Source of the DNA: Phytoactinopolyspora halophila
GTDB lineage: Bacteria; Actinomycetota; Actinomycetes; Jiangellales; Jiangellaceae
DNA length: 64,000 nt
Assembly (NCBI RefSeq): GCF_003287285.1
Contig: NZ_QMIG01000006.1
Location: 62,001-126,000 of the forward strand
Reading direction: 5' to 3'
Shown here: positions 44,592 through 62,382 of the stretch, piece after piece
Position numbering within the stretch: position 1 is the stretch's first letter
Layout: each line of letters opens with the position of its first letter
Translations under genes and position numbers: made by a program
Notes under the pieces: model-generated
Told to the model about the DNA's origin: nothing
Databases searched by the model: none
Seen by the model: the letters and a program-made list of their open reading frames with translations, nothing else

Positions 44592-44646
44592 GGGCCGAAG
44601 TCTGCCAGACCCCGGTGCCCTGTAACAGCGCCGCCATGGGCTTCTC

Positions 44647-45474: not shown

Positions 45475-45518
45475 CGCCGACGGACGTTCCGGACGCGAAC
45501 ACCACAACCGATCCCCAT
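45471..45518 (-). CDS. Possible leader peptide coupled to the APH-like gene
   Basis: From ATG 45518, with AGGGG 5 bases upstream, a 15-codon frame (MGIGCGVRVRNVRRR) ends in TGA whose first bases overlap the APH-like ATG at 45474 (ATGA). The APH start itself has no ribosome-binding site. This looks like translational coupling through a short Arg-rich leader. It is a reading of the sequence only. Confidence 0.4.
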   Translation of the reverse strand: MGIGCGVRVRNVRRR

Positions 45519-45578
45519 CATCTCCCCTCGTCACTAACTCTCACGTCTGGCGGAACTCCTGAAACCGGAACTCGAGAT

Positions 45579-45620
45579 GTGACCGTTCGATCACACTACG
45601 AGATGTTGTCGAACGACCAC
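45579..45620. promoter_or_regulatory. HipB-like operator pair upstream of the APH-like gene
   Basis: GTGACCGTTCGATCAC (45579-45594) and GTTGTCGAACGACCAC (45605-45620) match, base for base in most positions, the two operators in front of hipB at 47267 and 47293. They have the same 26-base start-to-start spacing and the same TT-centre then AA-centre order. They lie 45-86 bases before the APH-like frame. Confidence 0.7.
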
Positions 45621-45682
45621 ACGCGTAACTAACGGGCACCTTTGCCTATCGCTGCCAAATTGGTTGCCCACATCCGCGCCAA

Positions 45683-46972
45683 TCAGGGTTTCAGCACGCC
45701 GAACGCACCGCGCCTGTCCTCAATGTGCGCCGTGACGAGCTCCGAGATCCACGTCGCGCGTTCCTTCAATGCTCCAGGAACCGCGTCCTCATGGGCCGCA
45801 CGATGGAACGCATCCGGAATCGCCGCTCTCAGCGTCGCCACCCGCTCGAGCGACTCCTCCACCGACAGACCAAGTCGTGTCGCCACGGTCGCCCAGTCGC
45901 TTTCCGACACCTTGTGTAGGAGCCAGGTGCTCCCGATCTTCATCGCCGACTTCGCCCCCAGCTGCTGCTCATACGGCACGATGGTCGCCACGTCATACAA
46001 AGGACCCAGCTGGGTTCGGGAATTGGAAGCAAGAAGCAACGAGTAGTTCTTGGCGTGCGCGTCAGTCGCACCAATCAAGACATTGAACGCCAGTGCATCG
46101 AAGAAGCGCTTGGCACTTGCTTGCCGGTCACGAGCAACGAGGCCGCGCAGAAGTTGGGCGATTTCAGCCACACCCGGTCCGCCGTCGCTCTGATATTTCA
46201 TATGTGGGTGCACAGCAAGAGCCTGACAGAGGTCCTCCTGGTGAATCCGCCGCCACCGCCCGTCAACGAACACGCGATCATAGCGCCGACTGATAAGTAC
46301 CTCGGTGGCACCATGTGTGATGATCTCAGTCTCAGCAGCGGGCAGACCGACCAATTGGGCAGCACGCAAACACAGGTGCTCGTTGAGATGGTGATGTTCC
46401 AAGCCGGGGATAGATGGTTTGAGAATATGCGTGGTCGGTGTCGAGTCGCGTGGTATTCCCCACCGGCCGTCGTCGCCTCTGAACAGCGCGACTTTGCTCT
46501 GCGCACCAGCAAGACTCCATCGACCGGTATGGCGGCCGGGGTTCCAGTCAGAGCGATGTGCAGCTATCTCATCAAGGATGCCATCGATGTCATTCGTAGC
46601 AAGCCACTCGATGTCACCATGTCGGGAAGCCGCATCCGTCGACGCCTCGTCTTCGGGGAGCACTTGAACGGCGCCAGCCGCGTCCCGACCGACGTGTGCA
46701 AGCAGAGCAAAGGGATTGCGAGGAGACACCCCGAACTGCCGACCCCAGCGCTCGAGCGTGGATTCGCTGTCTGGCAACAGGCCCGCGAGAAATGCGTTCA
46801 CTGCCTTCGGCGGGAACGTGGTTCGTCCAAGCGGAAGAGACAGCGACAAGGGCACTGAGGATGGATCGTTGTATTCCGCGAGGTAGTTGAAATCAACCCG
46901 TCCCGTCGTGCTCTGAGTGAGCGTGCCCACCGGCGTGCCATCGAGATAGACAGCTAATCGCCGCTCGGCCAT
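45683..46972 (-). CDS. hipA: HipA-type serine/threonine kinase toxin
   Basis: A 429-residue HipA-fold kinase. In the best-known system, HipA phosphorylates glutamyl-tRNA synthetase and stops growth, and HipB neutralises it. Present here: the N-subdomain-1 opening LAVYLDGTPVGTL, the HipA_N region LPLGRTTFPPKAVNAFLAGLLPD, the nucleotide-loop motif WSLAGAQSKVAL (about 152-163), and the catalytic loop GATDAHAKNYSLLL (Asp 304, Asn 309), followed by the metal Asp in LYDVATIVPY. All key residues are present, so it should be active. The ATG follows CGGAGG and overlaps the end of hipB by 19 bases. Confidence 0.92.
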   Translation of the reverse strand: MAERRLAVYLDGTPVGTLTQSTTGRVDFNYLAEYNDPSSVPLSLSLPLGRTTFPPKAVNAFLAGLLPDSESTLERWGRQFGVSPRNPFALLAHVGRDAAGAVQVLPEDEASTDAASRHGDIEWLATNDIDGILDEIAAHRSDWNPGRHTGRWSLAGAQSKVALFRGDDGRWGIPRDSTPTTHILKPSIPGLEHHHLNEHLCLRAAQLVGLPAAETEIITHGATEVLISRRYDRVFVDGRWRRIHQEDLCQALAVHPHMKYQSDGGPGVAEIAQLLRGLVARDRQASAKRFFDALAFNVLIGATDAHAKNYSLLLASNSRTQLGPLYDVATIVPYEQQLGAKSAMKIGSTWLLHKVSESDWATVATRLGLSVEESLERVATLRAAIPDAFHRAAHEDAVPGALKERATWISELVTAHIEDRRGAFGVLKP

Positions 46973-47253
46973 GTCGACCTCCGCTCAGTCAGCCTGCCCA
47001 AGATGTCGTCGAACACATCCCCAGCGGATTCCTCGGCACCGCCCTCCGTGACAGCCACGCTGAGTCCGACGCCCACAGCGGCCAAAGCGTCGAGGACCAG
47101 TTGGGCTTCGAGTCGCGGATAGCCCTTTTCGAGGCGGACTACCCACTCCCGCGAGACGCCGACCGCCGCCGCGAGCTCCGCTTGAGTGAGACCCTTCTGC
47201 CTGCGTGCCTCCCGCACCACAGCGCCGAGATCTCGCATCGTGCGCGCTTGCAT
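46954..47253 (-). CDS. hipB: HipB-type antitoxin, XRE-family repressor
   Basis: A 99-residue Cro/C1-type HTH protein (LGAVVREARRQKGLTQAELAAAVGVSREWVVRLEKGYPRLE over about residues 9-49) with a short C-terminal tail, matching HipB: it binds DNA operators and the HipA toxin. I chose ATG 47253; the in-frame TTG at 47265 would adjoin the operator. Two 16-base operators lie directly upstream (47267 and 47293). It is translated with hipA. Confidence 0.9.
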   Translation of the reverse strand: MQARTMRDLGAVVREARRQKGLTQAELAAAVGVSREWVVRLEKGYPRLEAQLVLDALAAVGVGLSVAVTEGGAEESAGDVFDDILGRLTERRSTWPSGD

Positions 47254-47266
47254 AGCCACCTTCAAT

Positions 47267-47308
47267 GTGATCGTTCGACCACTTTATCATATGTGATCGA
47301 ACGATCAC
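47267..47308. promoter_or_regulatory. HipB operator pair in front of hipBA
   Basis: GTGATCGTTCGACCAC (47267-47282) and GTGATCGAACGATCAC (47293-47308) are two near-palindromes, each with arms GTGATCG/CGATCAC around TT or AA. Their starts are 26 bases apart. The nearer one ends 14 bases before the hipB ATG, so binding would block transcription. Confidence 0.8.
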
Positions 47309-47360
47309 ATTAGCGGCCATGCAACCCTGTGCTTAGACCACGATCATCCGACGAGCGACG

Positions 47361-47609
47361 CTACGGTCGAAGCGCACCGATCGGAACGACGTCGACGCCG
47401 TCGGGACGTTGGTACGCGTACTCACCTGCGGTTACCACCACGAGCGCCTCTGGCTCGTGCGCGACTCGCCGTTCGGCGAGTCTGCGAAGTGATGCGGCGG
47501 CAGCGTCGATGTCGCGTCCGAGCTTGACCTCGATACCGATCCAGCTACCATCCCGACCCTCAATGATCAGAGAAGATACAGCAGAACTAGCAGCTCTAGC
47601 ACTGTAGAA
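47361..47609 (-). pseudogene. Remnant of a DUF4143-type AAA ATPase (C-terminal end)
   Basis: An 82-codon frame ends in a normal stop but lacks its beginning. The protein reads GSWIGIEVKLGRDIDAAAASL and later EALVVVTAGEYAYQRPDG then VDVVPIGALRP, the usual C-terminal nuclease-like end of ATPases with DUF4143. There is no start or ATPase domain upstream, so it is a decayed fragment. Nothing else is seen up to mazF (47610-47804) but short repeats and a partial frame. Confidence 0.75.
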
Positions 47610-47804
47610 CTAGCAGGAACTTGGTGACGCGCGAGCTCATGGCCTACGCCAGCTGAGACGACCAATCCAGCAATCCGACTCCAAGACATCGCCGCCCATA
47701 ACCGCACCGAGGGCGTTGACCGTGGACATAAGCAGCCTCCCCGAACTCGGCCTCAGAGTGCACAGACTGACATGCTTTACGATTCGCCGACGCGCAGCGC
47801 CGCG

Positions 47805-48149
47805 TTACAGGGCGAGAACCCGGCGCAGCCCTTCGTCAACGTCGCTCATGAGATACACAGGCACGCAGTCGACGTACTCGGCGAGGTCTTCCTTGTTGAT
47901 AGTGATGAGCGCAGTGACGTTGACGACCGAGTCCTTGGGTAGACCCGTGGAACTCGCTGGCAGGAACACGTTGCCAGGCATGGCGGCCAGGCTGGTAGCC
48001 GATGTGAGGACGACAACGATTGCTGTAGCGAGCTCACTGTCATTGAACGGATCCGACTGGACGACGAGGACCGGCCGACGCTTGGCCGGCCTGCTCCCCG
48101 TAGGAGTTTCGAGGTCTGTCCAATACACCTCGCCCCGGCGGATCACCAC
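47805..48149 (-). CDS. mazF: MazF/PemK-type endoribonuclease toxin
   Basis: A 114-residue MazF-fold toxin that cleaves mRNA at short sequences. It opens with IRRGEVYWTDLETPTGSRPAKRRPVLVVQ, the classic strand-loop with the catalytic arginine, and has LPASSTGLPKDSVVNVTALITI, the second conserved segment with the catalytic threonine region. Length and motif set are complete. It overlaps the antitoxin gene by 7 bases. Confidence 0.93.
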   Translation of the reverse strand: MVIRRGEVYWTDLETPTGSRPAKRRPVLVVQSDPFNDSELATAIVVVLTSATSLAAMPGNVFLPASSTGLPKDSVVNVTALITINKEDLAEYVDCVPVYLMSDVDEGLRRVLAL

Positions 48150-48388
48150 TCGTCGTCACTCGCCTCAAGGCGGCTCGTGCCGGCAAGCGCAGCAAGTTCG
48201 TTGGAATCATCCGTTCCAGTGGCCGCGAGCGCTCGATTGATCTGCTCCGTGACGGTGGCCGCCTCAACCTGCTCCAGGTACCGCTCGGCCGCCGAGGCAA
48301 AAAACTCGGAACGACTGATGCCCAGGCGGGCGGCGCACTTGGAGACACGCTCGAACGTGCTGTCTGGCACAGAGATCGCTGTCTTCAT
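48143..48388 (-). CDS. mazE: MazE-type (ribbon-helix-helix) antitoxin
   Basis: An 81-residue antitoxin. The N-terminal MKTAISVPDSTFERVSKCAARLGISRSEFFASAAERYLEQ region is a ribbon-helix-helix DNA-binding domain and the acidic C-terminus (LEASDDEW) is the part expected to bind the toxin. Ribbon-helix-helix antitoxins paired with MazF are common in actinobacteria. It is the first gene of the pair and probably represses it through the site at 48395-48413. Confidence 0.88.
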   Translation of the reverse strand: MKTAISVPDSTFERVSKCAARLGISRSEFFASAAERYLEQVEAATVTEQINRALAATGTDDSNELAALAGTSRLEASDDEW

Positions 48389-48394
48389 GCCGCC

Positions 48395-48413
48395 AGTATA
48401 ACCCAGTAATACT
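48395..48413. promoter_or_regulatory. Possible MazE operator
   Basis: AGTAT (48395-48399) and ATACT (48409-48413) form an inverted repeat 6 bases upstream of the mazE start, overlapping the expected promoter and start region. A ribbon-helix-helix antitoxin would bind such a short palindrome. Confidence 0.4.
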
Positions 48414-48460
48414 CACGTCAGCGGCCGGTCTCCTCCCGACAGGCACGGCACCGCGCGTAG

Positions 48461-48661
48461 TCAGCTCTGTCTGTCGACCATCTCCTTGATCCAGGCCGGC
48501 GCGAACGGTGAGGTGCATCCGCTGGGGACGGGGTAGTCGCGGTACATGCCAAGTTTCTCGCCGATGGCGATGGCTCGCTCGCGGTGTTCGGGGTCGTGGA
48601 TCCCGATCCCTGCCAGACTGAAGTTCATCGTCCACTGCACTTCCGGAGCGGCGTCAGGCAT
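48461..48661 (-). pseudogene. Remnant of an AlkD-like DNA alkylation repair protein
   Basis: A 66-codon frame whose ending is that of AlkD-like DNA glycosylases: MNFSLAGIGIHDPEHRERA, then IAIGEKLGMYRDYPVPSG, CTSPFAPAWIKEMV. No start or N-terminal repeats are present upstream beyond about ten residues, so this is a truncated, probably inactive copy. Confidence 0.7.
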
Positions 48662-48781
48662 CTCGGTTTCGATGCTGCGGCTGCTCTTCCGAGAACGCAG
48701 GAGCCTCCGCGATATTCGCCTTCCGGCCGTGGGCCGTCGCTATTCCACGACCGGAGCAGTGTGCCGAGCAGGAGGGCTCGT

Positions 48782-49144
48782 CTAGCCGCTGCGGTAGAGG
48801 CTGATCCAGGTTCCGACTGTGGCCACAGCGGCCGGGAGAAAGAACAGGCCGATCGACGGCAGTGAGATAACTACGCCCAGACACAGGACGACAGAGCTGA
48901 GGCCCACCAGCCCGAGCCGTCGTCCCCAGGAAGCCAACCCGGTAGCGAAACCCGCAAGAGTAACCACGATAAGCAGGAGCATCGCGAAGAAGTTGAGGTC
49001 ATCGACGAGGCCAGAGGTTGTTGAGCCGTTGGAAGTGGAAGTCGTCTGGATCGGGCCAAATAGGACGAGCAGAACGGCGAGCACCGTCAACACGGGAGTG
49101 ATGATGGCCCATGATCGACATGCCGTCGGTGTTTCCGTGGTCAT
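48782..49144 (-). CDS. Small membrane protein, unknown
   Basis: A 120-residue protein with about four hydrophobic segments: IITPVLTVLAVLLVLFG (near residue 15), FFAMLLLIVVTLAGFATGL (near 50), LGLVGLSSVVLCLGVVISL (near 78) and LFFLPAAVATVGTWISL (near 100). ATG 49144 gives a compact start; a longer frame begins at 49192. No family is recognised. It lies between the AlkD remnant and the second hipBA pair and may be on the same transcript as neither. Confidence 0.55.
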   Translation of the reverse strand: MTTETPTACRSWAIITPVLTVLAVLLVLFGPIQTTSTSNGSTTSGLVDDLNFFAMLLLIVVTLAGFATGLASWGRRLGLVGLSSVVLCLGVVISLPSIGLFFLPAAVATVGTWISLYRSG

Positions 49145-49297
49145 CACCTCCTCCTCTGCGTCTCCGAATGCACGTGCGGACACCGGCGCCACCGGACAAG
49201 GGTGAACGCTGGCCAGGACTGTACCTTCAGCACACTGTACTTAGGTACAGCTCTCTGAGCTGCGGCGACGGTAGCCGGTTGAGGCCACGATCTTGAA

Positions 49298-50596
49298 TCA
49301 TCGCGTAGCCGTCGACTCGGATCGGTCGTCGAGCCGGGCCGTCAACTGCTTGACATGAGCAGCAATCGGATCGATCGAGCGCGCCCTTATCTCCCCCGCC
49401 TCCGGCGTGCCCACCTGAACCAGGGCGTCCGCGAAGGCGTCGGGAAACGTGTCGGCCATATGCCGTACGCGTTCCCGATAACGCTCTGGTGGGATGCCAA
49501 GCGTGCTCGCAGCCCTTTCCCAGTGCTTGCCGAGTATCTGGCCGAACTTTCGCCGACCTCCAACGGCAATCGCTAGCTCGCGGAGCGCGGAGTTGCCGGC
49601 GTAAGGAAGGCCTGTTGCCAGGTCATAGAACGGAGCCACCTTCGTCTCGCGCGGCAGGAGAAGGAGAGAGATGTTCTTCGAGTGCCCGTCCGGTGCTCCC
49701 GCCACATAGTTGAACGCTGCAAAGTCTCCGAGCGCCGCCATTCCCGAACTGCGCTCATGGACATTCTGTTCGACGATTCGAGCCATATCAGCCAAGGTCG
49801 GCCCGCCGTGCGCCTCATATTTCCTCGCCGGCAGTCGTCCGCTGGCCGAGCAGAAGTCCTCCTGGTGGATGCGTAAGACGGTCTCGTCTTCCAAGATGAG
49901 CCGGTCGTAGCGCTCGACCACAATCGCTGGCTCGCTTTCACCGAAGTGAGTGAAATCTGTGTGCGCCACATCCAATCCGATCTTGCGAGCGGCACGCATC
50001 GTCGCATGTTCAACGAGTGCCTGGTGATGCAGCCGGCCGATACCGGGCTTGACGATGTGGGTAGTTGGAGCAGCCCCTCGCGCCTCGTACCACCCGCTCG
50101 GCACGTTGACCAGAGCGATCTTTGACTGTTGCCCGGCAAGGGACCAGTGCTCGTCCGGCAGCGTCCACGATGCGGCGTCGCGAGTACGCAGAGACTTCAG
50201 CCTCTCCGCGATGTGAGTTTCGGTCACGGGCTCGAGCTGCTGGTTCCGTGATTGCATCTCGTCGAGTGAGTCAGGTGCGCAGAACTGCACCGCTCCTGGG
50301 CAGTCCCAGCCCATCCGAGAAAGGATCGCCACGGTGTCACCCGGGTCGACGCCGAGCATCGCGCCCCATTGGTTGCGGGTTTCCGGATCCTCGGGAAGCA
50401 GGCCTTCGAGGAAAGCACGGACGCTTTTGCCCCGATACGTGATGTCCGCAACCGGCATTCGAGTTCCCAGGGGAGTGGCGCCTGAAGCCACATAGGACGG
50501 GTCGTACGTGAACTCTGGCTCGGCGGTTGGGGAACGCTGGTCAATCCGCCCGACGACGGCTCCATATAAGACGACGAGCAGCCGACGAGGAGCCAT
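49298..50596 (-). CDS. hipA: HipA-type kinase toxin, second copy
   Basis: A 432-residue HipA-fold kinase, clearly different in sequence from the one at 45683. It keeps MPVADITYRGKSVRAFLEGLLPED, WSLAGQQSKIALV (about 151-163), and the catalytic GAPDGHSKNISLLL (Asp 303, Asn 308), so the kinase appears intact. It starts directly at the stop of its hipB partner (TGATG, one-base overlap). Confidence 0.9.
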   Translation of the reverse strand: MAPRRLLVVLYGAVVGRIDQRSPTAEPEFTYDPSYVASGATPLGTRMPVADITYRGKSVRAFLEGLLPEDPETRNQWGAMLGVDPGDTVAILSRMGWDCPGAVQFCAPDSLDEMQSRNQQLEPVTETHIAERLKSLRTRDAASWTLPDEHWSLAGQQSKIALVNVPSGWYEARGAAPTTHIVKPGIGRLHHQALVEHATMRAARKIGLDVAHTDFTHFGESEPAIVVERYDRLILEDETVLRIHQEDFCSASGRLPARKYEAHGGPTLADMARIVEQNVHERSSGMAALGDFAAFNYVAGAPDGHSKNISLLLLPRETKVAPFYDLATGLPYAGNSALRELAIAVGGRRKFGQILGKHWERAASTLGIPPERYRERVRHMADTFPDAFADALVQVGTPEAGEIRARSIDPIAAHVKQLTARLDDRSESTATR

Positions 50597-50865
50597 CAGC
50601 TTTCCTTCCGAGCCGCGAGAGCAGCCAGCAGTGCCGCCTCGCCTTCGGACGTCTTGGGCGTGGCGAGCTCGAGAGCAAGCCCGAGCGCCCGCAACACCAG
50701 GAAGACCTGCTCGACACTGGCTGCAGGATGGCCGGCCTCGAACCTTGCGAGCCAGGCGCGAGACACTCCGGCATGCGCAGCGAACGACACCTGCGACATC
50801 CCGCGTCGCTTGCGTTCAGCACGCACTGCAGCGCCAAGTTGCCGCGCATCCGTGATACTCGCCAT
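50596..50865 (-). CDS. hipB: HipB-type antitoxin, second copy
   Basis: An 89-residue XRE-family HTH protein: LGAAVRAERKRRGMSQVSFAAHAGVSRAWLARFEAGHPA (about 9-47) and a short tail. ATG 50865 with CAGGAGG before it is the best start; an in-frame ATG at 50898 lies in the operator. Three operator palindromes spaced 26 bases apart lie directly upstream, the nearest 11 bases from the ATG. Confidence 0.88.
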   Translation of the reverse strand: MASITDARQLGAAVRAERKRRGMSQVSFAAHAGVSRAWLARFEAGHPAASVEQVFLVLRALGLALELATPKTSEGEAALLAALAARKES

Positions 50866-50876
50866 CGACGCCTCCT

Positions 50877-50944
50877 GTCTGCGTACGCAGACATTCAAAA
50901 TTGTCCACGTACGTAGATACTACTAAATGCCTGCGTTCGTAGAC
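50877..50944. promoter_or_regulatory. Three HipB operators at exact 26-base spacing
   Basis: GTCTGCGTACGCAGAC (50877, perfect palindrome), GTCCACGTACGTAGAT (50903) and GCCTGCGTTCGTAGAC (50929) share the GTCTGCGTACGCAGAC pattern. Starts are 26 bases apart, as in the first hipBA pair, though the sequence differs. They cover the promoter and the region before the ribosome-binding site. Confidence 0.78.
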
Positions 50945-51217
50945 AATCGTCGAAGTTGAGGTAGCGGGATCGAACAAACCCCCGCGAACTCGACCTACTC
51001 AACCAGGCCTGACCACTGGCATCACTCCAAGCCAACCTGCTCGAACTAGCCCGCCACCACGGGCAAATCGAACACCGCGCCAAGACCAACCACGTCTATC
51101 CCAGCCGACGCAAGATACCCACCAACACCCGGGCATCTTGACGTCAGGCAACAGGGCCAGATCAAGCCGCCACCGCCGTGGCTCGAATACCGGTACGATC
51201 AACAGCGCGAAGATAGA

Positions 51218-51364
51218 CTGTCCCGAGCGGCGTTGCTCACAACGTCGAAGCAGGTCTCCTGCCCGACCACCCGCGCCTACGTCGAGCGCCGCACCGCTGA
51301 AGGTCGCACCAAGCCGGAGATCCGCCGCTGCCTGAAACGGCACATCGCACGCCAGCTCTTGTGA
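51218..51364 (+). pseudogene. Remnant of an IS110-family transposase C-terminus
   Basis: A 48-codon frame ends in PTTRAYVERRTAEGRTKPEIRR and CLKRHIARQLL, resembling the C-terminal end of actinobacterial IS110 transposases. The rest of the gene is not found, and neither ends nor direct repeats are seen, so it is an old fragment. From 50945 to 51546 nothing else is recognised except this fragment. Confidence 0.55.
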
Positions 51365-51546
51365 CAGATGTGCGCTGGCGGCTTGACACGAGCCATAGAA
51401 GCGTCACTATGAGGGACTCAACTACGCACCGCGCCGGTTCTCAATGTGCGCCGTGACGAGCTCCGAGATCCGCGTCGGGCACTCCAGATCGCATCGTGCC
51501 GGTAAACGCCCGCTCTGCATCCGTGCGAGAGTCGCCCAGCGGTCCA

Positions 51547-51939
51547 TCACTTAGTTCGGCTCGTCGACGCCGACGGCGGAATTCGTCGTCCCACTTCGTC
51601 GAGCTTCTCGTGTGCCGCACTGACGAGATCGACGTCAAGAACTGCAGCCAGACGAACGAGGTAGTTGGTGACATCCGCGAGTTCCGAGCGGATCCGCGCC
51701 GCTCTTGCGGGGTCGTGGGACATGACGGCGATCGACTCATCGGGTGTGAGCCACTGGAACTCGGCCAACACCTCTCCGGCCTCTCCGGCAAGCGCCATGG
51801 CCAGGTTTTTCGGTGTGTGGAATTGTTCCCAATCCCGCTCGGCGGCGAACGCCTCTAGTCGCTCAGCGAGTTCGGTGAGGCGGTCAGCTGCTGCACCGCC
51901 GCCAGAGGTCGCAGGATCTTCTTCACGTTTCCCGTCCAC
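51547..51939 (-). CDS. MazG-like nucleotide pyrophosphohydrolase
   Basis: A 130-residue all-helical nucleotide pyrophosphohydrolase of the MazG/RS21-C6 type, which removes pyrophosphate from (d)NTPs such as modified or excess dCTP. The motifs are FHTPKNLAMALAGEAGEVLAE (about 40-60, first metal-binding glutamates) and ELADVTNYLVRLAAVLD (about 85-101, EAxD-like second motif). It directly follows the DUF2075 gene on the minus strand (81 bases), a pairing that is common in defence-like loci. Confidence 0.82.
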   Translation of the reverse strand: MDGKREEDPATSGGGAAADRLTELAERLEAFAAERDWEQFHTPKNLAMALAGEAGEVLAEFQWLTPDESIAVMSHDPARAARIRSELADVTNYLVRLAAVLDVDLVSAAHEKLDEVGRRIPPSASTSRTK

Positions 51940-52020
51940 CGTCCATTCCTACCAGCTGCCCCTTTCGAGTCCAGCCAACGATTCCGAGACCTCAGTCATG
52001 ATCCCGTCGCGGAAGCACGA

Positions 52021-53910
52021 TCACGCCGACGCGGGCCTGCGCACGCCTTCAATGAGCTCAGCCAGAAACTCGCGCGTATGCCGATCGGTCGCATAGACGA
52101 CTGTGCCGACCATGCCACGCGTGAGGAGCACCTTGTAGACGTTACGGACGTTCCGATCGAACTCCGCGTCGCTCACAGAGTTGCGGTTCCGGAATGCCGG
52201 ATCGCGGTTCTCACTTCGCACTGAAGTCAGCTCACCGTCTCGGGCCACCAGGTCAGGACCAATGATGACGCCAGACCAGTCGTATTCGAATCCTTGAGCC
52301 GTATAGATGCAGCCCACTTGGCCGAATCCCGCCGGGTCAGTCGCCCAGTAAGAACGACCCGGCGCCCCGCCAACGGAGCGCTCGCTCTTGACGTTCCACG
52401 GGCGTGCCCAGTCCCCGATCTGCACGTCAGCAACGAGCGAACCGTCGGGTCGCGGGTTACTCCACGGCCAGCAGAAGCCGGCGGACATCCTCGCCGAATA
52501 GCCTTCATCCCGCTTGGTGGCCAGGATGGCCTCGAGATCAGACGGCGAATCCGCGACTTGTACCTCGAATCGCTCGTCCCCCTCCCACGGAGCCGGGCCA
52601 CCTGGCTCAAGGCCAAGCAGGCGCTTCACCCAGCGCTCATACACCGCGCTGCCGCCGCATCTGAACTGTCCCTCGAGATCAACAGGGATCACTTCAAGAC
52701 CGCGACGCGCTGCGGCCTCCTCAATGGCTTCGTAGGTCCCGATCTCACCTGGCTTGACGACCTGGTGCTCGTCGAGCAGGAACACTGGCACACTCGCGAC
52801 GGAGATGAGTTCCTCCACCTGAGGTCGTCCGGTACGGTCCGAGGCCTTGGTGAATCTGTTCTCTGACGTTGCCCTGATGCGATGCGCCTCGTCGGCGATG
52901 AGCACATCGAGGCTGTTCGCCGACTCCTTCATGAAGCTGTTGAAGTACCTGAACAGGTTCTTGAGCCGCGTCGACCCCTTGCCCGCGTACTTGCGCAGCG
53001 TCTCAGTGAATGATTTCGAGCCCGTCGCGTGCACGACGGTGCGGCCTCGGCGAGAAAGCTCGCCGAGGATCGAGAGTGCGATGACGCTCTTCCCGCTACC
53101 AGGGCCGCCCTTCACGACGATGACGCGCTTGCTGTCCTGCTCATGTGCATGCTCAACGGCGTGGAGGACATGCTCATAGGCCACCCTCTGCTCGTCCAGA
53201 AGCGTGAACCGTTCCCGCTCCTTGATCTCCTCCGCCGCGACAGCCAACAGTTGCCGGCTGGGGCGGATCGCACTGGAGAGAAACCGGTCCGCCGCGGGCG
53301 CACCCGGCGCAGGAGAAAGGTGTGTCTGCAGGTAATCCAAGAACTCACCCCGACGCTGAGCGGTGAACACTCGACTGTGTTCGTCCTGGCTCTGGTCAAG
53401 CACATCCCTGACCGCATGGTCGGTGGCGTTGTGGAGATAGGCCACGCCCTTCACGACATCAGAACGACCACGCAGCGACGCCGTGAAGTCCGCGATGAGC
53501 TCACAATAGCCGTGCACCTGAGTAGCGGGATTTAAACGTGGTCCCCGATGCCGGCCTTCAACGAGTACGAGTTCGTCATTGTCCTCCCAAGCTTCAGCAC
53601 TGCTCCACTGCTTCAGTTCGACTACGACGTACGAGTCCTCGCCAGTCCGTGGATGGACACCCGCCACGATGGCGTCAACGCGCTTACTCGTAAGAGGAAG
53701 CCGGTGCTCGACAAGGATCTCCACCGAGCCAAGACCAGCGTCGACGAGATCGCGAGCGAGTACCGGCAAGCTACGTTCCCAGGACCGCATCTCCGCATCC
53801 GACGCCCGCGCTCCTGTTGCGTATCGGACATGCTCAGCGATCCGAACCGGCAATGTACTCTCCAGCGCCAACGCAGCCAAGCTTTCGGCGGATGCGCGAA
53901 ACGCCGACAT
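52021..53910 (-). CDS. DUF2075 nuclease-helicase
   Basis: A 629-residue protein. Residues 60-110 look like a PD-(D/E)XK nuclease core: KRVDAIVAGVHPRTG then SYVVVELKQW (Asp 79, Glu 98, Lys 100). The DUF2075 ATPase follows with Walker A KGGPGSGKSVIAL (about 267-279), Walker B VLIADEAHRI (340-343) and the later motifs DLEGQFRCGGS and CIYTAQGFEYDWSGVIIGPD, then VYKVLLTRGMVGTVVY. This is the Schlafen-group-3/DUF2075 helicase type, often in defence islands. It is immediately upstream of the MazG-like gene. Role in antiviral defence is inference. Confidence 0.83.
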   Translation of the reverse strand: MSAFRASAESLAALALESTLPVRIAEHVRYATGARASDAEMRSWERSLPVLARDLVDAGLGSVEILVEHRLPLTSKRVDAIVAGVHPRTGEDSYVVVELKQWSSAEAWEDNDELVLVEGRHRGPRLNPATQVHGYCELIADFTASLRGRSDVVKGVAYLHNATDHAVRDVLDQSQDEHSRVFTAQRRGEFLDYLQTHLSPAPGAPAADRFLSSAIRPSRQLLAVAAEEIKERERFTLLDEQRVAYEHVLHAVEHAHEQDSKRVIVVKGGPGSGKSVIALSILGELSRRGRTVVHATGSKSFTETLRKYAGKGSTRLKNLFRYFNSFMKESANSLDVLIADEAHRIRATSENRFTKASDRTGRPQVEELISVASVPVFLLDEHQVVKPGEIGTYEAIEEAAARRGLEVIPVDLEGQFRCGGSAVYERWVKRLLGLEPGGPAPWEGDERFEVQVADSPSDLEAILATKRDEGYSARMSAGFCWPWSNPRPDGSLVADVQIGDWARPWNVKSERSVGGAPGRSYWATDPAGFGQVGCIYTAQGFEYDWSGVIIGPDLVARDGELTSVRSENRDPAFRNRNSVSDAEFDRNVRNVYKVLLTRGMVGTVVYATDRHTREFLAELIEGVRRPASA

Positions 53911-54426: not shown

Positions 54427-57400
54427 TCAGGCAACGATCAGCTCATCTGGACCGCGTTCAAGCCGGCCGGAGCTGAGGCCCAGCTCGATAGCTCGGTCCA
54501 AGCGCTCACTGACGCGTTCAGTCATCCGACGCCCACCGAAGATGTTCATTGCCTCGCGTTTCAGCTCCGGTTCGAGCATGCCAGCTGACTGGGTACACAG
54601 CGCTGCCATCGCGTTGATCATTTCGCGCAGGCTGACGTGATCGAACTTGCGCTCGTCACCGTCAACACTGGCGCGGAAGCCGGTCCAGGTCCGATAATCC
54701 AGTGAACCCGGCCACGCTACACTCTCCGCCGAGTCCGGCATATATCTCTTCGGAAGCTGCTGAAGGATCGCATCGCGACGGCTGGCGTGGACCTTGCTGA
54801 GCCCGAACGCGCTCGCCACCAGCTTCACAAGGCGGTCGATGTGCACCGGACCCTCGGCCTCGATCACCTGCTCAAGGACCGCTGCGACAGCGTTGTTGCT
54901 CGCCGCGGACCGACCAAGCCCGTCGAGAGTCTCGACCGTGCCGAGGATGCGCGGTGTCCATGGCACGTATGTGGACTGTCCGGGGAGCGCACCAGGTTCA
55001 GCTGGCAAGGACGACCGCGGCTCAGAATCAACGACGGCGGCGGACGCGATCGGGCTGGCGATCGCTGGCTCAGCCTCGGCGCGCCATTCTACAGCCTCGT
55101 CGACCACGTTGAACTCGTTCGTGGAAGGACGGGCTGGCTCCGGGTTCGCAGGTGCCGAAGGCTCGGCAGGACCGAACGAGTTCTCATCGTTGTCATTACT
55201 CTCCCGCCGCGTGCCGGACAGTACGTCGTCCACAGCACGCACGAGACGGTCAACGACGGCATCCGGGCCGTCGAGCCACGCTGGAAGCCACACCCGCTCC
55301 ACGGCAGGCCAGTGCAGCAGCTGGACCAGCACCTCCGACGGCAGCCCGTCCCGGTCACCCACGGTCCGTCGGGCGGCCCACGCCGGCCCGTCCAACAACA
55401 CCGCGAGAAGCGCATGCTCCGGCGCGTCCGCACTCGCCACGCTAATGTCCACCTTGAAGTCCGAAAGACCGACGTTGGTGATCACCGCCAGACCACGGTC
55501 GCGCAGGCGGGCCGCGATGTCCTCGGCGTGCCGGTCCGCCACCGTCGCCGCGTACGGGTTGTTCGGCAACGTCGCCGTTCCCTGTTCCGCCATGTCCAGG
55601 TATGCGCGCAGGTGCTTGATCCCGACCGACGACGTCTCCTCCGCGCGCAGCTGCGACGGGTCGAACGACGAGAACACGATCACCCGGCGGCGCGCTCGGG
55701 TTATGGCCACGTTGAGCCTCCGTTCCCCGCCGGCCCGGTTCAGCGGTCCGAAGTTCAGCGGCAGGACACCACGGTCGTTCACGCTGAACGCCGTGGAGAA
55801 GAGAATCACATCTCGCTCGTCGCCCTGGACATTCTCCAGGTTCTTGACGAACAGCCCTTCCTCGTCAGATCCGTCCAATGCCTCCGCCAGGCGCGGATCG
55901 TCGCTGTCCCGGATCAACGCCTCGATGTATGCACGCTGCTGCTGGTTGAACGTCACCACACCCACCGACGGGGCCGCGTCGGACGATGCGTCGAACCGTC
56001 GCTGGATCTCGGCCACAACGGCCTCGGCCTCCACCGGGTTGGTCCGAAGCAGCTTGCCCTTCCCGGTGCGGTGGAAGTGACCGTCCACGCGCTCAAGAGT
56101 GACACCGTGGTCCGCGCTTCCCAGCGCAGACGGCGCTGGGAAGGTCGACAGCTTGTTCTCGTAGTACTGGTGGTTGCTAAACGCGATCAGCGACTCGTCC
56201 TGGCTGCGATAGTGCCATGAGAGCCACTGCTGCGTGACGCGCGCCTGCACGCACTCGGAGAGAATGCTCTCTTCGTCCTCCACCGCGCCTTCAGCCATGC
56301 TCTCGTCATCGTCCCCGGGCGTCGACGGCTCGGCGAACGACGTCGGCGGCATCTGCTTGCTGTCACCCACCACGACGACGGACTTAGCCCGCCCGATGGC
56401 ACCGATCGCGTCCGCGACTCGGATCTGTGACGCCTCGTCGAACACCACCAGGTCGAACTGCGCTGCCCTCGGCGGGAAGAACCGGGCCAACGAATCCGGA
56501 CTCACCAGCACGCACGGCATCGCTCCGGCGACCAGGTCCCCGTACTTCTCCATAAGCTTGCGGACGCTCAGTCCGCGCCTTTGCTTTCCGATCTCCCGCC
56601 GCAACTCACCAACGCGTCCTAGGCTCGTCTCCGGGTCGAACGGACGCGCTCGGATAACGTGTGCCGGGGTCGCGTCGCTCATGGCGTTGCGGACGGCGCC
56701 GGCTGCCGTGGTGAAACGGCTGATCGCCCGCTCATGTCCGTGCGCGTCGAAGTCCACCAGGCCGGTGGCTGCCCTACGCTCTTCGACCGACGACTCGGCG
56801 ATCCCGCGCTCGAAGGCCTGCACTGCGTCATCGGCGTCCACTGCACCGGATAGCAAGGCCCGCCGCGCGTCCATCATCCCGGTGACGCGCAGCGGCTCGA
56901 CGTGGGCCAGCAGGTCGAGCCACCGGCGCAGGCTCCACATCTCCGGCGACGCCGTGTCACGCCCGTCGCGTGTCTGCTGCCACCGTGCGACGAGTCCATC
57001 ACCGCCGGACCAGGCCGCGAGACCTGAATCTTCGATGAGGCAGACATCCGCCAGGCGCGAGGTGGCATCCCGGAGGCGAACCGCGAGCTCGGACTCGGCG
57101 GAGGAGAAGGGATTCGACTTCAGCGCCTGCCTCAACGCCAGGATGAACTCGCCCGAGGGATCGCCGTCCGCACGCTCACGGATGGCACCACCTACCCACC
57201 GCAGCCAGTTCAGCTGCTCATCGACCAGGTCACGACCTTCGTCGGTCAACGGATTCCATGTCGCGGGCAGCAAGATCCCGGGTACGGTCGCTGCGTCGGC
57301 CGCCAGGCCCTGCACGGCGGCCTGCACGCGCAGGAGCGCTTCTGTCAGTGCAGGCAGTTGCTTCGGCTTCACCGAGCCGCCACGCCGCATGACCCCCTCG

Positions 57401-60400
57401 AGCTCGTCTCGCACGGCGACCAGCCGCTTCTTGCGTCCGAAGAAACCGGAGGCCGCCGCAGCCTGCGCCCGCGCATGAATATCCGGCAACGGCAGGTCGA
57501 GCGCTGCTGCTGTCACCGGGCCTAGCGCCGGCGTGTGTGTCGCGGCGAACTGCGCCAGCTGCTGTGTGAAGGCGGCCGCGGCCGACTCCCACTGGGGAGA
57601 CGGCACCTGGTCGAGCACCTCCAGCGACCTGTGCGGCGCGGATGCAAAGGCGGCTAGGACGACGAGGTCGTCCATGGTACGAACGGCGCGCACCACGTCA
57701 GCCAACGGACCCGTAGCCGGTATGGAGTCGACCGCAGCGTCCAGCTCGAGCACCGCGTCCCGGACCGCCGCGACGTCGATCGATCCGGCCTGCGGGCTGT
57801 CGATGAACCCCCATGGATGGTGTGGCCGTGGACGCGCCACATCGGCCACCTCCGGCAGCCCGTTCAGCACATGCCGTATTTCGGCCACCGTGTCTGCAGC
57901 CGACGATGTCAGCAGCTCACGCGGCACGTGCAGCGCTGGAACGGAGGAGTCCATGGCCAGGCGCTGGGTGTGCGCGCTGTAGAGCGACAGCCCTGCCGCG
58001 TTCTCCTCGTGCAGGTATCGCGCGTAGCGGTCCAATGTCCGCCGCGCCGAACGCAATTCTTGCTCGCGGGCGGACAGACCCTGCCAGTCGACCGCCACCG
58101 AGTGTTCCAGCGCCTGCTTGATCTGTGCCCGAACTGCCGCCGGTTTGCTTCCCTTGTCGTGCAGGTCGAGTGAGAACGACGTCATGCCCACACGGTCCAG
58201 ACGCCCTTTGACGACGTCGAGCGCGGCCCGCTTCTCGGCGACGAACAGCACCCTCTTGCCCTCCGCGACGGCGCGGATGAGGAGGTTCGTGATCGTTTGC
58301 GACTTGCCCGTTCCCGGTGGGCCTTCCAGCACGAACGTCGCCCCGCCGACGGCTGTCGCCACCGCCTCGAGTTGGGACGCGTCGCCGGGAACGGGACAAC
58401 GCTCGGCGACCTGGTCCAGGTCGACCTGTTCCGCATCGAACGCGCACGGATCCTCGAAGGGATCCATCGGCGATTTGACCAGGTGCGAGACGAGCGGACT
58501 CTTCGACAGCTCCTGCCAGTGCTCGTCCAGGTCCTTCCAGAGCCTGAACTTCGAGAACTGCAGGATGGCCAGGTGAGCGGTGGGTTCCACGTGGAATGGG
58601 AGTCGCCGTTCGGCCAGGGCCACCCGCATCGCGTCGAACGCGGCGTCCAGATCGATTCCGGCGCCGTCCTCACTCGGCTCGGCGAGGCCGGGGATTTCCA
58701 TACCGTGCCGCTGGCGCAACTTCTCCAGCAGGCAGTAGTTAGGTGTGCTGGTGCCACTGTCATCCAGCTCGATCCGGTAGACGGTCTGGCGCGACAGGGT
58801 CGTCAGCCTGACCGGCACAAGCACCAGCGGTGAGCGCAGGTCCCGGCCGTCCAGCGTCCACACGAGCGAGCCCAGCGCGAGGTAGAGGTTGTTTGCGCCG
58901 GTCTCCTCGATGATGGTTCTGGCCTTGTACGCGAGGTTGCGCATTCTGGTCCGGTACGCGGCCGAGCTCACGTCGGTGTACGTGGCTCGCTTGGCCGAGA
59001 GCATTCCGGCGAGATGGTCGGCGGGCAGGTCGCGACCTGCCCGGGCCCCGCGCTCGTAGTGGATGCTGTCGAACTGGTCGCTCGGGAGAAGCTGGACGGC
59101 CGTGCCTTCGTGCAGCATGTCCTCGACCATCGGCAGGTGGCCATCGGGAACGGCGAGTTCCAGGGCCGTCCGCTCGGTGAAGTTGATCAACCGGTTCCGC
59201 AGGCTCAGGTCCAGCAGCGAGTTCTTCCACGCCTGAATCCGCTGCGGCACGGCCGGACCCGTGGATGTGCTCTGCTCCGGCCGCTGCTCTGCCCGCGCCG
59301 GTGCCGGAGTCGCGTGTTCGGCGGCACGGTACTCGACGACGGTGACCGACCCACCGGCGTCACGCACGCGGGCGGGCAACGGGACGATCCCCGCCAGGCG
59401 CGCCTGCCGCACGTCGGTGATCCCGATGACACTGGAGAGATCACCAGTGAGGTACGTCGCGGCAGGTGTTTGGTGCGTTGCGGCGAACGGCACCGCACCG
59501 TCGCTCGCGGTCACGGCCGTCGTCTCGACTAGGCGGATCATGCCGAGATGCATGAGGTTGACAGCGTCTCCGGCATCGGCGGAGGCGGCACCATCCAGCG
59601 CGTGCTCCTCGCGCCAGTAGCCGAGGAACGCATGCCCGTCGACGATCCACAACAGCGGGCGGACGCCCGCCTGCTCGAGCGCCGCTGCCATGACGACGAC
59701 CAGGTCAAGGCAGGTGCCGACCCGATCCTCCAGAACCTCGCTCGGCGTCCGAATCTTCTGACCGACGTCCGACCAGCTCGCCGGCGGCTCGCTGTACCGG
59801 ATGCCGCGGGCCTGCATCGCCTCGTAGATGGCTTGAGCGATCGCGTCGACCCGTTCCGGACCGCCTTGGTAGCCGTCGACCGATGCCCGGCCGGTCCGCC
59901 GTTCCAGGATGTCCGACGCCTCGGAGACCAGCTGCGCCACGGCGGGATGGTTGGGCATGACGAACGCGGCGAGCATTTCGAGCGCCAGGGAAACCGGTTC
60001 GGTGCGCCACTGGTGTGCGGCCAGCATGGTGACCTGGATCTGTCGTTCCGCCAGTGGCGACCCGTCGTCGTACAGCGCCAGCCGGATGGCGGCGGGACGC
60101 TGTTCTTCCACCTGGAGCATGGCCGCCGGATCGACTGTCAGATCGAGATCCGTGAGCACCGACGGCCCGGAGGCGTCGAGGTCGACCAGCCTGTCCTGCG
60201 ATGTTCCGAGTACGCCGTCGGCGTCACGGATCTCCATCCGCATCTTTGCCCCGCGGATCGTCGTCGTCGCGCCGCTTACGGTGACCCGGTTCACCACCGG
60301 AACCTGGTTGTGAGCCATGGGGTAGCTCAGAATGGACGCGGCTTCGGCGTCGATCGTGATCAAGCTTTGTGGTTCCACCCGTTCTTCATCCGCCAGGGGA

Positions 60401-61647
60401 TCGGGGAGGCCGGATGCCACACTGATCTCGTCGGGCGATCCACTGAGTCTGCGCTCCAGCATCCGCGCAAACGTTGCTTCGTCGATGATCGGTACCCCCA
60501 GCTCCCGTGCTCGCCGCGCCTTCCCTGACATCGTGTCGGTATCGGCAGCCACCATCATCGTTGTACTGGAAGTGACTGCATCCTCCGGACGCAGGCCGTG
60601 AAGAGCGGCGCGCCGCTTCCATTCGTCGCGACTCAACTCCATCTGACCGGTGAAGACAACACCATCGCCGGGTCGCAGCTCGAAACGCCCGTGCCCGGAT
60701 TCCGGCTCGGCCATGTCCCGAGCGGCCGATAGGGCGTCGTCCACGGACGCGTCTGCTAGCCCCAGCAACCACGCGACCGCGACCAGGTCCTCTCGCTCGT
60801 TATCGGTCACGACACCGTCGGCCAGTGCGGCCCTCGCCAGGTCCGTGAGATACACGTCGTGCAGCTGCTCGACGGCGGCACGAGACAGCTCGAGTTCTGC
60901 CGCCACGTCCAGCAGAGCGTCGGCCTCGGTGACGGAGATATGTCGATCGAGCAGAGCTTGGTCCAGAACGGTCAGATAGGCGTCGGCGTTGGGCATCTCA
61001 GCATGGCGTGGCAGATGCTCGGAAATGCGAGCAAGGAAGTGCTTGGCGGCGTGTTTCGAAGCCGCTCCACGCTTGACCGGCTGAACCGGCGCGCCATCGA
61101 TCGCAGGCCATGCGTGCGGAATACCGCCCAGCTCGCCGTTGCCGTTGCTTCGGCCAAGGCGGATGTAATGGGAAAGGAGCAGGGCCGCGGCGAGCGCGTC
61201 GGCCTCGGCAGCGTGCCAGGGCGCAGGCTCGATGCCCGCTGCGGCACAGCAGTCAGCCAACGTCCGACCGCTTCCCGGCAGGTACGTCCCGGCTAGCTCC
61301 ATGGTGCAGAGACCGTGCTGGCGCGGTACTGGAACGGTGTACCCGATCCGCCCGTACTCGGCGTGCATGAATCCCAGGTCGAACGTGATGTTGTGCGCCA
61401 CAAAGATCCGCGACGAGAGCATGTCCGAGACGTGTCCGGCCACCTGCGAGAAGGTCGGCGCGTAGAGAACATCACTCGCCGAGATTCCGTGAATGTGCTG
61501 CGCACCGAGATCGCGTTCAGGGTTGAGCAGGGTGCACCATCGCCGCTCGATTTCGCCATGCTTGTCGACGAGAACGATCGCTAGTTCGACGATGCGGTTT
61601 CGCTGCGGAGAAAGCCCCGTTGTCTCCAGATCAACGACTGCGTACAC
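54427..61647 (-). CDS. Giant multi-domain nuclease-helicase
   Basis: A 2,406-residue protein (2,416 from ATG 61677; I prefer GTG 61647, with GGGGG upstream and the exonuclease motif starting at once). Positions count from the ATG. Domains: DEDDh exonuclease (11-165: Asp 16, Glu 18, HNITFD, HAAEAD); TerB-like helices (230-320); BRCT (335-410); unassigned beta-rich part (430-550); transglutaminase-like (610-690: Cys 656 in GTCLDL, His 682 in GHAFLGYW); DUF4011 (812-1080); SF1 helicase with Walker A GPPGTGKS (1119-1126), a helical insert (1200-1680), DEAS (1747) and GDERDVILFSTAF; Vsr/MTES-type nuclease (2045-2155: DFKVDISVA); Pro/Ser linker; DUF3320 (2255-2400). It stands alone. Helicase-nuclease plus DUF4011 resembles Hhe-like defence proteins; the N-terminal half is unusual. 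Cellular role unknown. Confidence 0.85.
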   Translation of the reverse strand: MYAVVDLETTGLSPQRNRIVELAIVLVDKHGEIERRWCTLLNPERDLGAQHIHGISASDVLYAPTFSQVAGHVSDMLSSRIFVAHNITFDLGFMHAEYGRIGYTVPVPRQHGLCTMELAGTYLPGSGRTLADCCAAAGIEPAPWHAAEADALAAALLLSHYIRLGRSNGNGELGGIPHAWPAIDGAPVQPVKRGAASKHAAKHFLARISEHLPRHAEMPNADAYLTVLDQALLDRHISVTEADALLDVAAELELSRAAVEQLHDVYLTDLARAALADGVVTDNEREDLVAVAWLLGLADASVDDALSAARDMAEPESGHGRFELRPGDGVVFTGQMELSRDEWKRRAALHGLRPEDAVTSSTTMMVAADTDTMSGKARRARELGVPIIDEATFARMLERRLSGSPDEISVASGLPDPLADEERVEPQSLITIDAEAASILSYPMAHNQVPVVNRVTVSGATTTIRGAKMRMEIRDADGVLGTSQDRLVDLDASGPSVLTDLDLTVDPAAMLQVEEQRPAAIRLALYDDGSPLAERQIQVTMLAAHQWRTEPVSLALEMLAAFVMPNHPAVAQLVSEASDILERRTGRASVDGYQGGPERVDAIAQAIYEAMQARGIRYSEPPASWSDVGQKIRTPSEVLEDRVGTCLDLVVVMAAALEQAGVRPLLWIVDGHAFLGYWREEHALDGAASADAGDAVNLMHLGMIRLVETTAVTASDGAVPFAATHQTPAATYLTGDLSSVIGITDVRQARLAGIVPLPARVRDAGGSVTVVEYRAAEHATPAPARAEQRPEQSTSTGPAVPQRIQAWKNSLLDLSLRNRLINFTERTALELAVPDGHLPMVEDMLHEGTAVQLLPSDQFDSIHYERGARAGRDLPADHLAGMLSAKRATYTDVSSAAYRTRMRNLAYKARTIIEETGANNLYLALGSLVWTLDGRDLRSPLVLVPVRLTTLSRQTVYRIELDDSGTSTPNYCLLEKLRQRHGMEIPGLAEPSEDGAGIDLDAAFDAMRVALAERRLPFHVEPTAHLAILQFSKFRLWKDLDEHWQELSKSPLVSHLVKSPMDPFEDPCAFDAEQVDLDQVAERCPVPGDASQLEAVATAVGGATFVLEGPPGTGKSQTITNLLIRAVAEGKRVLFVAEKRAALDVVKGRLDRVGMTSFSLDLHDKGSKPAAVRAQIKQALEHSVAVDWQGLSAREQELRSARRTLDRYARYLHEENAAGLSLYSAHTQRLAMDSSVPALHVPRELLTSSAADTVAEIRHVLNGLPEVADVARPRPHHPWGFIDSPQAGSIDVAAVRDAVLELDAAVDSIPATGPLADVVRAVRTMDDLVVLAAFASAPHRSLEVLDQVPSPQWESAAAAFTQQLAQFAATHTPALGPVTAAALDLPLPDIHARAQAAAASGFFGRKKRLVAVRDELEGVMRRGGSVKPKQLPALTEALLRVQAAVQGLAADAATVPGILLPATWNPLTDEGRDLVDEQLNWLRWVGGAIRERADGDPSGEFILALRQALKSNPFSSAESELAVRLRDATSRLADVCLIEDSGLAAWSGGDGLVARWQQTRDGRDTASPEMWSLRRWLDLLAHVEPLRVTGMMDARRALLSGAVDADDAVQAFERGIAESSVEERRAATGLVDFDAHGHERAISRFTTAAGAVRNAMSDATPAHVIRARPFDPETSLGRVGELRREIGKQRRGLSVRKLMEKYGDLVAGAMPCVLVSPDSLARFFPPRAAQFDLVVFDEASQIRVADAIGAIGRAKSVVVVGDSKQMPPTSFAEPSTPGDDDESMAEGAVEDEESILSECVQARVTQQWLSWHYRSQDESLIAFSNHQYYENKLSTFPAPSALGSADHGVTLERVDGHFHRTGKGKLLRTNPVEAEAVVAEIQRRFDASSDAAPSVGVVTFNQQQRAYIEALIRDSDDPRLAEALDGSDEEGLFVKNLENVQGDERDVILFSTAFSVNDRGVLPLNFGPLNRAGGERRLNVAITRARRRVIVFSSFDPSQLRAEETSSVGIKHLRAYLDMAEQGTATLPNNPYAATVADRHAEDIAARLRDRGLAVITNVGLSDFKVDISVASADAPEHALLAVLLDGPAWAARRTVGDRDGLPSEVLVQLLHWPAVERVWLPAWLDGPDAVVDRLVRAVDDVLSGTRRESNDNDENSFGPAEPSAPANPEPARPSTNEFNVVDEAVEWRAEAEPAIASPIASAAVVDSEPRSSLPAEPGALPGQSTYVPWTPRILGTVETLDGLGRSAASNNAVAAVLEQVIEAEGPVHIDRLVKLVASAFGLSKVHASRRDAILQQLPKRYMPDSAESVAWPGSLDYRTWTGFRASVDGDERKFDHVSLREMINAMAALCTQSAGMLEPELKREAMNIFGGRRMTERVSERLDRAIELGLSSGRLERGPDELIVA

Positions 61648-61881
61648 ACCGATACACCCCCTGCCAGCACGGAACACTATCCTGTGCCTGCTAACTCCCC
61701 CTCGACCTATTCCACCCTGCGCCCTGAATCACCTCGGAACGGCCCGACGCAGAATATCGGCCACCCACGACACATGGAATACGTTCGTGCGCTTCACTCA
61801 GCTATTCGCTTGTCGGACATATCCCAGCCAAAGGCGCCGAATAGTCCAGCACAACACTGACGGTCGGTGCATCGCGGCATG

Positions 61882-62382
61882 TCATGACCGCCCCTCGAGG
61901 ATGATCGTCAGGCCGTTGTCCGGGTGATAGCTCCACGACGCGGCCACGTCGTCCCAGGACGCATCAAGAGTGCCGTCCAAGGCGCGCGTCGACGTCATGC
62001 GCGACACCGTGGACTCCGGCACCGCGAGCTCGTCCAGCACGCAGAAGACCTCGTCCAGCGTCGCACCCGGGCGTTCCTCTCCCGCACCGAGGACCTCCAG
62101 CGCTGATCCGTCGTCAAGCACAGTGATGTACGACGACTCCGCCGCACACGCATCTTTGGCAGCTTCGAACCTGCTCGACTCCGCTGCAGTGTCGTCCGCG
62201 GACTCGGCTACTGCGAGGTCACCCTCCGTATCGGAGTCGAACGCCGTCGCACCGATAACCAGCCCGATCCCGATGCCGACCACCATGACGGCACAGGTAA
62301 CCGCGATCAGCGCCTGCTGCGTCACCCGCCCGTCGCCGGCCGGCTCGCCCGCCGTCCTACCTGTCTGGTCATGCTCATCCAT
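61882..62382 (-). CDS. Membrane-anchored protein, unknown
   Basis: A 166-residue protein with one membrane helix (ALIAVTCAVMVVGIGIGLVIGATAF, about 24-48) and an acidic extracytoplasmic part with two cysteines (DACAAES and EVFCVLDEL) and repeated Glu/Ala. ATG 62382 follows GGGGAG; the longer frame from 62505 is less likely. The final SWSYHPDNGLTIILEG repeats a common ending of small actinobacterial sensor-like or lipid-binding domains, but I cannot name it. Confidence 0.6.
   Translation of the reverse strand: MDEHDQTGRTAGEPAGDGRVTQQALIAVTCAVMVVGIGIGLVIGATAFDSDTEGDLAVAESADDTAAESSRFEAAKDACAAESSYITVLDDGSALEVLGAGEERPGATLDEVFCVLDELAVPESTVSRMTSTRALDGTLDASWDDVAASWSYHPDNGLTIILEGRS

Follow-up and report, generated by a model that had tools for sequence, protein, structure and literature searches.

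A ProA-type helicase-nuclease fused to a PDC-S48-type exonuclease module in Phytoactinopolyspora halophila

A giant gene composed of two catalogued parts

In Phytoactinopolyspora halophila, the 64,000 nucleotides analysed here (positions 62,001 to 126,000 of contig NZ_QMIG01000006.1, assembly GCF_003287285.1; referred to as the window) contain a giant gene in which an exonuclease-TerB-BRCT module of the PADLOC candidate family PDC-S48 is joined to a helicase-nuclease of the ProA family. The gene is a single open reading frame at 54427..61677 on the minus strand, the strand of all its features given below; it has a GTG start and 2416 codons, and the frame is open throughout, with no internal stop. 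Translation probably begins slightly further in, at the GTG at 61647 (residue 11), yielding a protein of 2406 amino acids, since AGGGGG, a Shine-Dalgarno-like stretch, lies just 5' of it. An earlier note on this DNA, made from the sequence alone, had recognized eight regions in the protein, a reading that was largely correct in that Pfam gives the order DEDDh, TerB, BRCT, transglutaminase, DUF4011, superfamily 1 (SF1) helicase, MTES_1575 and DUF3320. Its proposal of an undescribed system, on the other hand, was too strong, because residues 438-2416 correspond to ProA and residues 11-413 to PDC-S48, while a layout bearing a HEPN domain was published in 2013 (PMC3710099). Judged by sequence, the new element is the fusion of a PDC-S48-type module to ProA, both parts being already catalogued separately.

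The N-terminal module matches PDC-S48 over residues 11-409 (515.5 bits, profile positions 5-407 of 411), that is, over the whole DEDDh-TerB-BRCT model. It opens with a DEDDh 3'-5' exonuclease domain at residues ~11-173 (61159..61647; Pfam RNase_T at residues 14-167, E 6e-21), in which the active-site residues D16, E18, D100, H155 and D160 are all present, and the predicted fold of residues 1-430 matches the DinG exonuclease, Pol III epsilon and RNase T. Next come a TerB-like helical region at residues ~214-323 (60709..61038) and a BRCT domain of the NAD+ DNA-ligase (LigA) type at residues ~337-413 (60439..60669). Both Pfam calls fall under their cut-offs (TerB at ~280-317, 16.6 bits against 24.4; BRCT at 341-401, 19.9 bits against 21.3), yet they are backed by the span of the PDC-S48 match, by solved NAD+ DNA ligase BRCT domains that match this region in the PDB (1l7b and 9vse; E 5e-4 and 1e-3) and by the agreement of the structural models, which place helices in the TerB-like region and are consistent with the BRCT domain in secondary structure. 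Literature on PDC-S48, on proteins combining TerB and BRCT, and on ProA yielded nothing relevant.

The remainder of the protein, residues ~438-2416 (54427..60366), is by its profile match a complete ProA, a family curated by NCBIfam as "anti-phage protein": residues 452-2384 match NF058533 (antiphage_ProA) with 1773.7 bits against a cut-off of 1500, along profile positions 2-1903 of 1903. PADLOC likewise divides the giant protein into two candidate families, PDC-S37 (residues 810-2410, 923 bits) and PDC-S48. The ProA part begins with a beta-sandwich domain at residues ~440-551 (60025..60360; predicted local distance difference test mostly >90), whose Foldseek matches are beta sandwiches of Ig-like and RhoGDI type, followed by a transglutaminase-like domain at residues ~562-755 (59413..59994) that contains C656 and H682. 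AlphaFold models these two domains confidently within residues 425-840; the transglutaminase-like domain also has a sub-cut-off Pfam match at ~612-675, and among solved structures it is best matched, though weakly, by a putative protease and by transglutaminase 3. Towards the C-terminus lie DUF4011 at residues 821-987 (58717..59217; Pfam E 6.6e-35), an Upf1/SMUBP-2-like SF1 helicase at residues 1099-2003 (55669..58383) whose motifs I and II are separated by a long insert, a Vsr/MTES_1575-type nuclease domain at residues 2052-2148 (55234..55524; MTES_1575 44 bits, cut-off 38.2) and a DUF3320/winged-helix region at residues 2259-2296 (54790..54903; Pfam 33.9 bits), the latter a winged helix-turn-helix (wHTH) according to PMC3710099. 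The exonuclease-BRCT-transglutaminase half had been thought to belong to no named system, which holds for the combination of exonuclease-BRCT with the helicase, found in none, but not for its components, as the transglutaminase-like domain belongs to ProA and the exonuclease-TerB-BRCT part is PDC-S48.

The junction and the rarity of the fusion

Among 77 loci with ProA relatives, the other ProAs normally begin at a position equivalent to window residue ~425-438, and stand-alone PDC-S48 proteins stop at ~410; the two modules thus meet end to end across a junction of ~24 residues (residues 414-437, 60367..60438). This junction contains an in-frame GTG at codon 421, near the start point of other ProAs and without a clear Shine-Dalgarno sequence, at which re-initiation may occur. 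The G+C content at third codon positions (GC3) is ~0.66-0.76 in residues 11-413 and ~0.80-0.88 in residues 441-2150, and the lower value of the exonuclease module relative to most of the ProA core is consistent with a recent gain of the module. In a tree, the window ProA is sister to that of Phytoactinopolyspora halotolerans.

Fusions were surveyed in about 800 genomes (22 of the family and order, 394 of the class and 396 of the phylum), which gave stand-alone exonuclease-TerB-BRCT genes of ~410 residues and stand-alone ProAs. Fused homologues were also sought in genome contigs, plasmids and viral contigs, and none was found. Upstream extensions of ProA at three loci look like non-coding read-through and were rejected as fusions. 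Several other homologues carry HEPN_Swt1 at the N-terminus, a domain that a Pfam search did not find in the window protein. The layout may be described as a ProA whose N-terminal effector has been exchanged, the exonuclease module occupying the place where HEPN sits in others; the HEPN version of this architecture has been published (PMC3710099), and the exonuclease-fused version occurs in no other genome surveyed.

Conservation of the active sites

In an alignment of 45 rows, the helicase motifs GPPGTGKS and DEASQ are kept in 44-45, and the window protein has the conserved Walker A K1125 and D1747/E1748, so that its SF1 helicase motifs are intact. The C-terminal nuclease is altered: where most proteobacterial relatives have the motif D...ExD...H, the window protein has L2094 in place of E and A in place of H, and the same loss of E and H is seen in every actinobacterial ProA examined. 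Since some of the ProAs with the altered motif share the family, this motif appears not to be a defining trait of ProA. D2077, D2096 and TxxDRD are nevertheless kept in 43-44 of the 45 rows, and the altered site may still be able to bind metal or DNA. At position 656, Cys is found in 28 rows, Pro in 15, Ala in one and a gap in one, meaning that 16 of 44 relatives whose helicase motifs are intact have another residue in place of the presumed transglutaminase Cys. This speaks against an essential protease.

These patterns bear on several expectations of the earlier note. Of the two nucleases it placed at opposite ends of the chain, the DEDDh domain is intact and the C-terminal one has an altered motif across the whole actinobacterial clade, and the reading of a protease- or amidase-like site is weakened by the absence of the Cys from many relatives. 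Mutation of catalytic residues across the family, which would have spoken against the proposal, is found in many members for the C-terminal nuclease motif and the transglutaminase Cys, and not for the helicase.

Partnership of PDC-S48 and helicase-nuclease genes

The same two kinds of gene are repeatedly found as partners. In the class survey, a full-length PDC-S48 gene adjoins, on the same strand and with a gap of at most about 120 nucleotides, a gene encoding SF1 helicase and MTES_1575 domains in genome G064; such partners also lie about 80-160 nucleotides away on the same strand in G267, about 25 nucleotides away and convergent with a PDC-S48-type gene in G012, and 5-7 kb away in G125. Uniform placement would predict 0.009 pairs within 1 kb, and three were observed; this null model is rough, in that it takes no account of the clustering of defence genes in islands. 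Outside the class survey, ProA and an intact DEDDh-TerB-BRCT gene are 2.6 kb apart in Modestobacter caceresii, separated by a HipA gene, and in one Blastococcus clade (eight loci) a divergent DEDDh-TerB gene stands beside ProA; in one of these loci the gene model includes an N-terminal hydrophobic helix. One PDC-S48 gene (locus L183) is situated in an island together with genes for a BrxHI-like helicase, an ABC-3C C-terminal domain and an SF1-helicase/MTES_1575 protein. ProA genes on Paraburkholderia and Rhizobium plasmids adjoin genes for an SbcD/Mre11-like exonuclease and an AAA/YhaN-like ATPase, an arrangement that is possibly a multi-gene ProA system; with their SbcD/Mre11-like neighbours, some proteobacterial ProAs likewise show a helicase paired with an exonuclease. 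On a Microbacterium plasmid, the supposed 3'-5' exonuclease that adjoins a broken ProA is a UvrD/RecB-like protein, not a DEDDh exonuclease, and was set aside.

Genomic neighbourhood

The surroundings of the giant gene look like a defence-type island. Its downstream neighbour, at 52021..53910 (-), encodes a Schlafen-group-3 helicase protein (PF09848 E 2e-86; weak PADLOC PDC-S41) and is a possible island member, and two HipA-type genes follow, one for a kinase toxin at 49298..50596 (-) (HipA_C E 1e-45) and a second at 45683..46972 (-) (HipA_C E 2e-49). At 43662-53910 of the window, an aminoglycoside-phosphotransferase-like gene and the Schlafen-group-3 helicase gene stand in a row with the two HipA genes, which share 36% identity, and at about 34-42 kb the GC content is 0.56-0.60, below most of the window. 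Just beyond the window end (L139:18322-19308, plus strand), 2.6 kb upstream of the start of the giant gene and divergent from it, a separate gene encodes a DEDDh-BRCT protein of 328 amino acids, without TerB and ~31% identical in the exonuclease part. The same contig also encodes, about 100 kb off, a DUF4011/SF1-helicase protein of 1336 amino acids of the PDC-S37 type (G000:C69:11837-15847), whose nuclease motif looks degenerate.

Proposed mode of action and alternative explanations

We consider it moderately probable that the product is an anti-phage helicase-nuclease of the ProA type, fused N-terminally to a PDC-S48-type exonuclease and acting as follows. The C-terminal winged-helix/DUF3320 region, together with DUF4011, would recognize invading DNA, along which the SF1 helicase would translocate while unwinding it; the fused DEDDh domain would then degrade the exposed 3' end, held at DNA ends or nicks by the LigA-type BRCT domain, while the C-terminal Vsr-like domain would nick or bind DNA and the transglutaminase-like domain would be mainly structural or regulatory. 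Here we infer DNA as the substrate, the order of events and the anti-phage role. The proposal draws on the ProA and PDC-S48 profile matches, the end-to-end meeting of the two modules, the invariant helicase motifs and the recurrent partnership of the two kinds of gene. Also in its favour, other ProAs carry a different type of nuclease, HEPN, at this N-terminal position.

Several observations weigh against it. No second exonuclease-ProA fusion was found in the 77 ProA loci or the about 800 genomes, and the fusion thus rests on one genome. The exonuclease of G012 belongs to a DEAD-helicase protein, of which it forms the C-terminal part. The PDC-S48 neighbour in G267 has, judged by motif, lost DEDDh residues, and the Blastococcus neighbours have lost D100 and in most cases D16 and have no BRCT, so that catalysis is not the conserved feature of the pairs in G267 and Blastococcus. 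Most PDC-S48 genes do not stand beside a helicase-nuclease gene, and the link is therefore recurrent but not obligatory. The argument from neighbourhood is also mixed: the defence context expected for homologues is found for the window copy, which has a pair of HipA genes, a gene for a Schlafen-type helicase and a DEDDh-BRCT gene in its vicinity, but the ProA genes of Geodermatophilaceae lie among ordinary chromosomal genes.

This last observation, and a ProA tree that broadly follows host genera, would suit a helicase-exonuclease of host genome maintenance, serving repair or replication stress and not defence, as would the repair-type combination of DEDDh with a LigA-type BRCT and the SbcD/Mre11-like genes that adjoin some proteobacterial ProAs. 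Such a role is nonetheless unlikely in our assessment, given that NCBIfam curates ProA as anti-phage, that, at the sensitivity used, the family and order survey detected ProA in no more than 3 of its 22 genomes, that many plasmids carry DUF4011/DUF3320 relatives and that the PDC-S48 gene of G125 neighbours BrxHI-like and ABC-3C-type genes. We give a similarly low probability to an abortive-infection toxin, in which the exonuclease would destroy host nucleic acid on sensing infection and kill the cell. Exonucleases of the DEDDh kind require a free 3' end and, by themselves, kill poorly, and no antitoxin or silencing partner was seen, although HipA genes are nearby and HEPN, for which suicidal action has been proposed (PMC3710099), occurs at the same position in other ProAs.

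It is also rather improbable that two adjacent genes are being read as one, either because PDC-S48 and ProA are translated separately across a stop-less junction or through an assembly artefact. The lack of another fused copy, the GTG at codon 421 near the usual ProA start and the lower GC3 of the exonuclease module would fit this explanation; however, 2416 codons run without a stop, the end of one family joins the start of the other with only ~24 residues between, codon 421 is not preceded by a clear Shine-Dalgarno sequence, and a recently gained module would also be expected to differ in GC3. A novel sensor-effector with protease or amidase activity, as the earlier note proposed, is very unlikely: C656 and H682 are present in a modelled, transglutaminase-like fold, but Cys gives way to Pro or Ala in more than a third of the relatives, as described above.

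Returning to the fused ProA as an anti-phage protein, the fusion links two defence candidates listed separately by databases and suggests that PDC-S48 and ProA can work together, with an N-terminal effector of ProA-like proteins that is seemingly exchangeable between none, a HEPN RNase and a DEDDh exonuclease. We put forward only tentatively, as somewhat less than an even chance, that the PDC-S48 exonuclease and helicase-nucleases of the PDC-S37/ProA type are parts of a single defence machine. Its effector, either DEDDh-TerB-BRCT or HEPN, would be exchangeable and could be N-terminal or encoded by a neighbouring gene; the fusion would be the Rosetta-stone case, in which the exonuclease may take the place of a C-terminal nuclease that in Actinobacteria has changed or decayed. 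Compensation of this kind is not well supported, as many actinobacterial ProAs with the altered motif carry no extra nuclease module. Among actinobacterial ProAs, neither the transglutaminase site nor the Vsr-type site is conserved, which bears on how the mechanism is probed.

Comparison with named systems

PDC-S48 is normally encoded by a separate gene of ~410 residues, its stand-alone products being up to 48% identical to the window module, and forms the N-terminal part of a fusion here, whereas the PDC-S37 model (DUF4011-SF1 helicase-MTES nuclease) lacks both the transglutaminase half and the exonuclease present in the window protein. DinG helicases belong to superfamily 2, of the XPD kind, in contrast to the SF1 helicase of the window protein, and we know of no DinG-type protein with a BRCT domain. 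The window protein nevertheless shares with the S. aureus DinG type (8zef) an N-terminal DEDDh domain fused to a helicase. With Hhe, the DUF4011 anti-phage protein (NF042953), it has DUF4011, the SF1 helicase and the Vsr-type nuclease in common, and the resemblance to this defence-type single-gene nuclease-helicase, suspected from the outset, was borne out as that of a relative; membership was rejected at 599.2 bits against a cut-off of 2000. The ProA model (NF058533) is matched end to end, the differences being the extra N-terminal DEDDh-TerB-BRCT module and a C-terminal nuclease motif changed in the way seen in the other actinobacterial ProAs. Finally, Anantharaman et al. described in 2013 giant proteins (MTES_1575) with the order HEPN-transglutaminase-SF1 helicase-Vsr nuclease-wHTH, and proposed roles for two of the domains, recognition of invader DNA for the wHTH and a suicide function for the HEPN RNase (PMC3710099); the order of the core domains is the same in the window protein, which has exonuclease-TerB-BRCT where those proteins have the HEPN RNase.

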